From: Vitis vinifera
Taxonomy: Eukaryota; Streptophyta; Magnoliopsida; Vitales; Vitaceae
Assembly: GCF_030704535.1 (NCBI RefSeq)
Contig: NC_081815.1
Location: forward strand, 1,069,001 to 1,133,000
Length of the DNA stretch: 64,000 nucleotides
Direction: 5' to 3'
The notes under the pieces are model-generated. The model saw nothing but the letters and a program-made list of their open reading frames with translations, ran no database searches and was not told the origin of the DNA. Below are positions 40,328-43,167 of the stretch, one piece after another. The translations under genes were made by a program, and so were the position numbers. The first letter of the stretch is position 1. Each line of letters starts with the position of its first letter.

Positions 40328-43167
40328 TTAAGCCGTTGGGACCTCAATATCAGTTGCCAACTTTTCAGGCCTGATGTATTCTTCTTCTTCCTTGGGAGTG
40401 TGGATGGTGACAAGATCAGGGAGAGGCGTTTTGGGGCCTTGCTTTCCCTTGGGATCCCAATCAAGCATGATCTTGACCTTGATACCAAGTACACCCTGTT
40501 TGATGGCAAGCAATCCAGAACATGATCAGGACACAATTGCAATGAAGGTAAGCAACCGTATGAACCACCGCAATGGTTGAGGATGTTAACAAAAAGAAGC
40601 ATGAACAGATCAACTGGGTGAGTGAAGCAAACCTGTCTTAGAAGCACATGTCTCACAGCTGAGTCAATATATTCCTTGACTGGCTGACCAGAAGATATCA
40701 TGTACCCATCCTTAAACTTCATGGATTTGGCACGTTGTGCCCTCAATTTCCCACTAACAATCACCTGTTATGCGCATCAATAGCATTGTAAAACATAATT
40801 GTGATATAGATTGATAAAAGCTGGATTTTGAAAGGTTCAAATGTACAAACCTCACATCCCTTTGCCCCACTTTCCATAATGAATCTCAAAACACCATAGC
40901 AGGCCCTAAAATAGGACAGCAACCAGAAGGCAAATTAGGGCTCGAACAGCCATGAAACAGATCGTGACTAATCCACATTGCTAAGTGTGGCAAGTGTTAA
41001 CACTTACTCTTTAACTTATAAATTGTTAATGCATATTATCACAAGGAAAATACATAGTTATGGTTCTGAATTATAACAAATAAGGATAAGGATAAGGATA
41101 TGGTAGGTTGAGTACAACAAAAAATTTCATGTGTTTTCAGTCTTGTGTGTATCATTATATAAAAAATAATGCGGTTTTACAAAAGGGTAGGAATTCAAAC
41201 TGCAGCATACATTTTAGAATGTGGCAAGTCATCATGCTTCCAAGGGGAAAAAGTCTTGGAGTAAATGATATTGGATGTATTTAGGAAAAAAATTTCCACT
41301 ATGTAGCAACTCCAGGCATACAAATGAGAGCTAGTTCCATCATCATTTGACTAATGCTTTGGAGAAGCATCGTTAATATAGTCATCTTCCGACACAAACC
41401 TGGTATGGGAATAACCTATTTGCTTTATAGATGACCATCCAAACAGCATGACAAACAAGGAATAAAGAAATTTCTGCACAAATCCCAGTTCAACATGCAT
41501 AAGAATGTGTAAAGAGAGAGCAATGCCCACTCCAGCAACCACTTAAAAATGCACTACACCATCATGTTTCTAAGGGAATACTAATCTTGAAAGGGTAGCA
41601 AAGTGAAATAAAAATTGATTTGTTTGGGAGAAAAATTTCAATAATGTAGCAACCCCAGGCATACAAATGTAGGTTAGTTTCATTTCATCAGCCAAATGCA
41701 TAGGAGAAGCATCATTCATATAGTCATCTTCCGACACAAACCTGGTATGGAAATGACCTATTTGCTTTATAGATGACTACTCAAATATTGAGAGGATGAA
41801 CAAAGAACATCAAGAGATGAGGACACTACAAAATTCGACATGCATATGAGAATATGCCAATTTGAAAGCCATGCAGCTTATAGCAATCACACCTCTTTAG
41901 AAATCTTTATACTACATTTTTTTTGATAGACGAAGACAAATTGAATTGATAAAACGCCAAAACAGGGGGTGCACCGTACATAGTATACAAATCTTCATAC
42001 TACATAGAACAAAAGCACAATGCAAAGGAGAAAATAAAAGGAATTCTTGAACATGTATCCTCTGTATGGTCACTACGTGAAAACCATTACATTTCACAAG
42101 TACGATGGCTTGGAGGAAGATAACTAATATAGTCATAGTCCGACACAAGGTTGATATAGAAAGACCGATCTGCTTTATAGATGACAAATAAAAATTGAGC
42201 AAAAGTCTGAAAGAACTCCAAACAAATAGAATCACAATGAAGGTGTAGATTCAGATGCATAGAAAATTCATAAAAATAAGAATCACATTGTCAGGTGTTT
42301 TTTTTCTCTTCAATCCACGGAAGAGTATGCATTAAAGCTTTTCAGAGACGCTTTCATTATGTACTCGTATAAGATTTAGTAAGAAAAATGAGCATTTTCC
42401 AATGGACCTAGCAATATTGTTTGAACTAACAAATGTATTAAACAAACACACATTATTCAAATGAATCAGCATATACTATAAGTGCAGATGATATTGCAAA
42501 AGTAAAATTAAAACTCGAGTGTACTCGTTCTAAATTTGTATAAATCAACTATACATTAATTAAACTAATTTTTTATTTATTTATTTGTTTATTTCATCAA
42601 AAATAGAGAAATGAAATTTGATTTGTATACCTGCGAACGGCAAGGCCTCCAAGGAGCTTGTACCGTAGCGATTCGGCCTGAGCAACAGCACAAAGTCCTC
42701 TGTTGTTGACTTTCTCGGCATACAACTCCACACTGTTCTCAGGAAACTTGAATCGCTTTTGTACAACGGACGTCAATTCTCTAATTCTCCTCCCTTTCTC
42801 ACCTAAAAGCCAAAAAGCAAAAAAGGAGAGTCAGAAAACCAACAAATCTGAAACGCGAACTCAAGAATAATCAAAGCCATTGAATCACCAAGAACGTTCT
42901 GAGTACGAGTGGCTCTGATGATGATTTCAGTGCGCATTGGCGTAACCCTAACCTCGACACCAGAGTAGCCATCCTCGGCCAGCTCTCTGGTGAGAACCTC
43001 GTTCAGCTCAGCAAAGAAAACTCCATCAGCTACGAACTGTAAGAGAAAACAAAATAAGTTACCGAAACTTTAACAAACATAACTTTCCGATTGGTAGCTC
43101 AGAAAACAAAGGAAAATAAAAGAACATATGATCAGACCTTTCTCTTCTTGCTCATTTGAGTCGCCAT
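40328..43167 (-). CDS. RPS3: 40S ribosomal protein S3 (uS3)
   Basis: Six coding exons on the minus strand: 43167-43138, 43036-42889, 42802-42631, 40905-40851, 40764-40633 and 40495-40328. They total 705 nt for 234 aa, normal for plant S3. The start is [16 protein letters not shown] type-2 KH domain lies at about residues 20-95 with its GxxG loop in [12 protein letters not shown]. The S3 C-terminal domain follows ([26 protein letters not shown]), then an acidic KEEEEY tail region. S3 sits at the mRNA entry channel of the small subunit. All borders are GT-AG. Intron 3 (40906-42630) is unusually long and holds three candidate H/ACA snoRNAs. The gene is divergent from RPA1, with 517 bp between the starts. 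Confidence 0.96.
41299..41435 (-). ncRNA. Candidate box H/ACA snoRNA A (RPS3 intron 3)
   Basis: A 137-nt module in the sense orientation of RPS3. The 5' hairpin is closed by GTCATCT (41435-41429) and AGATGAC (41387-41381). A single-stranded H box ATATTA (41379-41374, ANANNA consensus) follows. The 3' hairpin starts near GCTTCTCC, has inner stems GCAT/ATGC and CAAATGA/TCATTTG, and closes with GGAG-TTGC. ACA lies at 41304-41302, three bases before the proposed end. The conserved GTGTCGGA arm of the 5' pocket begins 14-16 nt before the H box, the spacing expected for a pseudouridylation pocket. The rRNA target is not known. Confidence 0.7.
41642..41777 (-). ncRNA. Candidate box H/ACA snoRNA B (RPS3 intron 3)
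   Basis: A 136-nt paralogue of candidate A. The 5' stem GTCATCT/AGATGAC is identical and the loop changes from GGTTATTCCCATACC to GGTCATTTCCATACC. The H box is ATATGA (41721-41716). The 3' hairpin keeps GCTTCTCC against GGGG-TTGC (a G-U pair replaces an A-U pair), the GCAT/ATGC stem and an AAATG/CATTT stem. ACA is at 41647-41645. Flanking sequence is also shared with A, so the two arose by a duplication of about 340 bp. Confidence 0.7.
42051..42185 (-). ncRNA. Candidate box H/ACA snoRNA C (RPS3 intron 3)
   Basis: The most diverged copy, 135 nt. The 5' stem is GTCAT/ATGAC, with the pocket sequences CTATAAAGCA and TTGTGTCGGA kept. The H box is ATATTA (42130-42125). The 3' hairpin has different sequence but folds the same way: ATC-CTC pairs GAG-GAT at the base, TAC pairs GTA, and GTGAAA pairs TTTCAC. 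ACA is at 42056-42054. Keeping the layout with changed bases suggests selection on structure. Its 3' guide probably differs from A and B. Confidence 0.62.

Follow-up and report, generated by a model that had tools for sequence, protein, structure and literature searches.

The third intron of the RPS3 gene in the window, by which we mean the whole 64-kb stretch of DNA analysed, probably holds a tandem array of H/ACA snoRNAs. Copies A and B look intact, while copy C appears to be older and partly decayed, and the 5' pocket that they share would guide modification of the counterpart of yeast 25S Psi2133. We infer the steps of expression, processing, RNP assembly and modification as follows. The modules would be made within the RPS3 pre-mRNA, the snoRNAs would be released from the spliced intron and they would then be assembled with the dyskerin core, whose proteins in H/ACA RNPs are dyskerin, GAR1, NHP2 and NOP10. 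The 5' pocket (ATAAA / GTCGGA) would pair with 25S UCCGAC[UG]UUUA and the bracketed U would be converted to pseudouridine, at the position corresponding to Psi2133. Judged from their sequence, A and B are candidate new members of an ordinary kind of gene, the H/ACA guide snoRNAs, with a concrete predicted target. This means that a likely guide can be named for a pseudouridine position known from yeast, in a plant intron where Rfam is silent.

Three related modules in RPS3 intron 3

The host gene, RPS3/uS3, occupies 40328..43167 on the minus strand from its start to its stop codon, and its six coding exons were established from the reading frames and the spliced translation. When this translation, typed as one protein, was used as a query, 115 distinct PDB sequences were matched at E <=0.001. 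Among the best 60 of these 115 matches the top names were mostly uS3 or 40S ribosomal protein S3 (top match 9p8h_SD, E 5.4e-234; uS3 chain 8auv_a, E 5.4e-140). Intron 3 (GT...AG), which hosts the modules, was read from the sequence and the exon ends at 40906..42630 on the minus strand. It measures 1725 nt (42630-40906), which bears out the unusual 1.7-kb intron reported by the initial annotation. Beyond the 5' end of the gene, ~520 bases separate the RPS3 start codon from a divergent plus-strand reading frame at 43684-43943 that starts with MPVNLTPNAIAAINGG. By eye this frame resembles what we take to be the N-terminus of the replication protein A 70-kDa subunit, and the two genes may have a common promoter.

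Three related minus-strand modules had been proposed for this intron, and we found them, C beginning at 42185, B at 41777 and A at 41435. They are sense to RPS3, so that their order in the transcript is C, B, A. Module A (41299..41435, 137 nt) is the best-folding copy. Its H box, ATATTA, lies at 41374..41379, its right guide arm, GTCGGA, at 41388..41393, its left arm, ATAAA, at 41424-41428 and its ACA box at 41302..41304, all on the minus strand. Module B (41642..41777, 136 nt, minus strand) is built likewise, with the H box ATATGA at 41716..41721, GTCGGA at 41730..41735, ATAAA at 41766-41770 and the ACA box at 41645..41647. Module C, the first in the transcript, is a doubtful and partly decayed copy on the same strand. 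It spans 42060..42185, or extends to 42051 with a second ACA, so its length is 126 nt with the first ACA and 135 nt with the second; its H box, ATATTA, is at 42125..42130 and its guide arms are at 42139..42144 (right, GTCGGA) and 42174-42178 (left, ATAAA). The three H boxes directly follow the 5' hairpin, in a motif (ANANNA) that is common by chance. In A and B an ACA comes after the 3' stem, C has two candidate ACAs, and the 3' ends are putative.

The guide pocket of an H/ACA RNA is positioned ~14-16 nt upstream of its H or ACA box. The same spacing had been claimed for the pocket arm and the H box of the modules, and we measured 14 nt in each of them.

Between modules B and C, within 41898-42005, there is a stretch of ~71 nt (41918-41988) with near-identical repeats, AAATCTTTATACTACAT and AAATCTTCATACTACAT, at both sides. 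It begins with a T run on the plus strand and therefore ends with an A run on the sense strand. The stretch resembles a short, truncated retroelement that was inserted with a target-site duplication.

We compared the stability of every hairpin with 500 dinucleotide shuffles and that of the whole modules with 200 shuffles. In A and B the 5' hairpin folds the same way, with an 8-bp lower stem, the pocket ATAAA / GTCGGA and an upper stem of 6+3 pairs, followed by the H box, and it was stable beyond shuffles (4/500 and 5/500 shuffles as stable, respectively). The 5' hairpin of C was not (424/500), and its lower stem lacks the top two pairs and the outermost pair. The 3' hairpin was moderately stable in A (19/500) and not beyond shuffles in B (92/500). 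In C its different bases had been said to form matching pairs, which our control does not bear out, as 181/500 shuffles were as stable when the hairpin ended at the first ACA and 82/500 when it ended at the second. Whole-module energies were ordinary, with 28/200 shuffles as stable for A, 103/200 for B and 140/200 for C; here the spans of A and B were begun two bases late and that of C ended two bases beyond its second ACA. Free folding of each whole module gave an energy below that of the summed separate hairpins by 0.7 kcal in A, 2.8 kcal in B and 7.0 or 3.2 kcal in C. The H/ACA plan ascribed to all three copies holds for A and B (5' hairpin, H box and terminal ACA) but is not supported by the hairpins of C. 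Since neither hairpin of C beats its shuffles and its ACA is ambiguous, this copy is doubtful. The best reading is that A and B are good H/ACA candidates, and that C is plausible but weak.

In all three pairs of copies the likeness is greater in the modules than in their flanks. The 16-mer TGTGTCGGAAGATGAC had three matches in the window when up to 3 mismatches were allowed, all of them in modules, where 0.24 were expected; none of 100 shuffles reached three matches. The modules were then aligned together with 190 nt of 5' flank and 150 nt of 3' flank. A and B agreed in 117 of 137 module columns (85%) versus 48 and 53% in the flanks, A and C in 85 of 137 (62%) versus 31 and 40%, and B and C in 87 of 136 (64%) versus 33 and 30%. 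The similarity of A and B begins at the 5' end of the module and extends ~40 nt beyond its 3' end, so the size of the duplicated unit may account for part of this contrast. The 63 positions of the 5' hairpin and the H box include 4 differences between A and B, all outside the pocket. Over the three copies, 14 of these first 63 columns vary, none of them in the guide arms or in the three fixed A's of the H box. The lower 5' stem and the pocket had been called nearly invariant; with just three related sequences in the window this description is based on A and B and is weaker once C is included.

No Rfam family reached its gathering score in the window, and the three matches in the intron (E <=10) did not overlap a module. 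A box C/D snoRNA was rejected, the only hit being to snoR31, below threshold (E 1.6) and at 42317-42245, where there is no module; so was a tRNA, as 0 tRNA were found. We also searched the genome (495.6 Mb, presumably of a plant judging from the genes present, with the window at C11:1069001-1133000) with C and B as DNA queries, and each gave three places, all in this intron. These searches are insensitive, since neither query brought up the diverged module, described below, that an RPS3 paralogue on contig C4 carries. A genome-dispersed repeat was rejected on the same three places, in searches too insensitive for weak relatives.

The modules might still be some other tandem intron repeat, such as a splicing element or the remnant of a mobile element, in which the boxes arose by chance. 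ANANNA and ACA would both be frequent by chance, and the silence of Rfam fits such an origin. However, the fold, the spacing of the pocket and the rRNA match presented below all agree with the H/ACA plan, and the genome queries with C and B give only these three places, even though they were too insensitive for the C4 relative. We hold a non-snoRNA origin to be highly improbable and treat the modules as probable H/ACA snoRNAs.

The guide pocket and its predicted 25S target

The target of an H/ACA pocket consists of the reverse complements of the right and the left arm, in this order, with U N between them. For the 5' pocket, which is identical in A, B and C, the predicted target is UCCGAC-UN-UUUAU. 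We scanned Arabidopsis-like 25S, 18S and 5.8S rRNA of provisional sequence, with 1192 U in all, in which three sites had 3+3 pairs or more. The best was 25S GAAUCCGAC[UG]UUUAAUUA, that is UCCGAC[UG]UUUA, with 6+4 bp and a score of 24; the runner-up scored 12.5. A score of 24 was reached by 38/3000 shuffled pockets, by 2/300 shuffled rRNA sets and by 34/1681 pairs of arms moved stepwise along the intron, modules included. Taken by itself, the complementarity to rRNA is equalled by 1 to 2% of the control pockets.

The target U lies in 25S GAAUCCGACUG. The provisional letters of the target stretch were confirmed in two rDNA relics of the genome, which carry GGGGAATCCGACTGTTTAATTAAAAC exactly, and in an IMG/VR contig (L001). 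In one of the relics (L026:5467-6021, contig C18) a degenerate 25S fragment runs straight into an 18S fragment, as in a rearranged rDNA copy. The other, of ~96 bases, is in L025 on contig C12. A conserved large-subunit 35-mer, again of provisional sequence, had 0 matches in the searched genome, and the rDNA array seems to be absent from that sequence. L001 opens with ~120 bases of eukaryotic large-subunit rRNA (L001:1-120) and shows phage-like genes by eye; it is likely an assembly chimera.

The part of the table covered in PMC8307265 gives yeast 25S Psi2133 with the guide snR3 and the mark H, which was taken as human. A register check on the eukaryotic stretch of L001 identified our target U as the counterpart of this position. 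In that register m1A2142, Psi2191, Cm2197 and Am2220 fell on the right base, while Psi2129 did not (C there). This fit of 4/5 marked bases was the best of 25 registers, and the next best reached 3/5. The passages covered of an Arabidopsis review (PMC8351944) equate Arabidopsis Am2210 with yeast Am2220, which would put the target at about position 2123 of Arabidopsis 25S. By the coordinates in these passages the position falls in domain IV; 31 pseudouridines are described there as mapped in the 25S domains IV and V, 13 of them without a known snoRNA. In the passages covered of PMC7464842, PMC8575768 and PMC5122169 we did not find RPS3 or 2123.

One could argue that the modules are H/ACA snoRNAs and that the 25S match is accidental, so that they would be orphans, would guide modification of some other RNA or would act through the 3' hairpin. 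The control pockets that pair equally well allow for this, as does the C4 relative, which is without these guide arms. Against it, the sole strong site coincides with a known yeast pseudouridine, and no part of A, B and C varies less than the guide arms. An accidental match is unlikely, and guidance of the Psi2133 counterpart by the 5' pocket is our preferred reading.

The initial annotation had suggested that both pockets might be matched to rRNA. This succeeded for the 5' pocket, but not for the 3' pockets, which have no assignable target. For the 3' pocket of C the best rRNA match was 18S UCAUCGUGA[UG]GGGAUAGA with 5+3 bp, and since 789/3000 shuffled pockets equalled it, we rejected this site; the new 3' target proposed for C is not supported. 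In A and B, where 5 registers and 6 left arms were scanned for the 3' pocket of each copy, there were several sites with scores of 20 to 24.5 and no clear pocket. These 3' pockets are unassignable because a choice among many registers would be needed. That just two copies share a guide, as had been proposed, is not supported either, since the 5' guide arms are identical in all three. Pocket-pattern scans of the genome_contigs and viral_contigs collections returned 0 matches, which is expected, as these collections are without plants.

RPS3 paralogues and a diverged relative

A uS3 protein search of the genome listed 41 places, including two further intron-bearing RPS3 genes, on contigs C9 and C4. 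Several other RPS3-like stretches, L007, L008 (C18:9899425-9900050) and L005, L006 (C5), cross exon borders without introns, and some have internal stops; they are probable RPS3 retrocopies. When positions 30001-56000 of the window were compared with the C9 (L017) and C4 (L018) loci plus ~9 kb on each side, they matched in RPS3 only, and no synteny among the three genes was apparent.

Intron 3 of the C4 paralogue carries one diverged module on the minus strand (L018:1447-1510 and following), which scored 79 bits with model R1, a model built from four sequences that include this module. A genome DNA search with it as the query returned itself alone. The module lies in the same intron as A, B and C and has the same 5' hairpin plan, and its hairpins are very stable (0/500 and 1/500 shuffles equal). 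Two upper-stem pairs are changed on both sides, from A-U to G-C. Covariation over the four sequences, the C4 module included, was equalled by 58/500 shuffles and is weak evidence. The C4 module differs from the others in its guide arms, GUCUGA and UUUACA, and in its H box, AUAUUC, and there is no clear ACA after its 3' stem. Because of these altered arms, the H box and the missing ACA, the C4 module may be retargeted, non-canonical or dying.

A more far-reaching scenario is that after the duplication of RPS3 the C4 snoRNA kept its fold by compensatory changes while both arms changed (GUCGGA to GUCUGA and UAUAAA to UUUACA), so that it left the Psi2133 site for another, and that the C11 copy was multiplied with its guide unchanged. 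The best candidate for a new C4 target is 18S UUCAGAC[UG]UGAAA, with 7+2 bp, in UUCAGACUG of the provisional rRNA. The reverse direction of the guide-arm change between C4 and C11 is equally possible. We regard this scenario as a long shot. If true, it would be a guide snoRNA caught changing its target inside one host-gene family.

In the C9 paralogue a module was suspected from the common GACTATATTC and then rejected, with an R1 E-value of 1.5 at that place. The R1 scan of L017 (best E 0.44) revealed no detectable module in C9 intron 3. Intron 3 is ~1.3 kb in both the C9 and the C4 paralogue. The snoRNAs had been invoked as the explanation for the length of the RPS3 intron, but the C9 intron is still ~1.3 kb without a detectable module, so intron size is not explained by the modules. 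The initial annotation is therefore partly supported, being right in the main and over-generous on copy C, on the 3' pockets and on the argument from intron length.

The C9 intron also bears on whether the copies still function. All of them could be relics of a former snoRNA whose processing into stable RNA has been lost, which would be in line with the empty C9 intron, the decay of C and the weak 3' hairpin of B. This is hard to reconcile with A and B: in the 5' hairpin and H box 4/63 positions separate the two copies, whereas in their flanks roughly half of the positions do, and the pocket is spared. We consider the loss of all copies improbable and retain A and B as intact candidate guides.

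Comparison with known guide RNAs

None of the named plant snoRNA families was matched by the modules in the Rfam comparison. Among the paper titles and abstract openings listed we found none naming snoRNAs in plant RPS3. A and B are predicted to act on the same rRNA position as yeast snR3, and they are likened to it by this predicted target. The covered part of PMC8307265 lists a second site for snR3, 2264, and no pocket for 2264 was found in our modules.

The setting of the modules resembles one known for plant snoRNAs. Passages covered of PMC4660826 describe plant ribosomal-protein genes with intronic snoRNAs and promoters with a telo-box and site II motifs. Using these motif names, we observed a telo-box-like AAACCCTAA at 43213..43221 upstream of RPS3, and site II-like motifs, matched to a provisional consensus, at 43382-43433. 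As in the plant ribosomal-protein genes of those passages, the putative RPS3 snoRNAs are sense to their host, number more than one per intron and have telo-box-like and site II-like motifs upstream of the gene.
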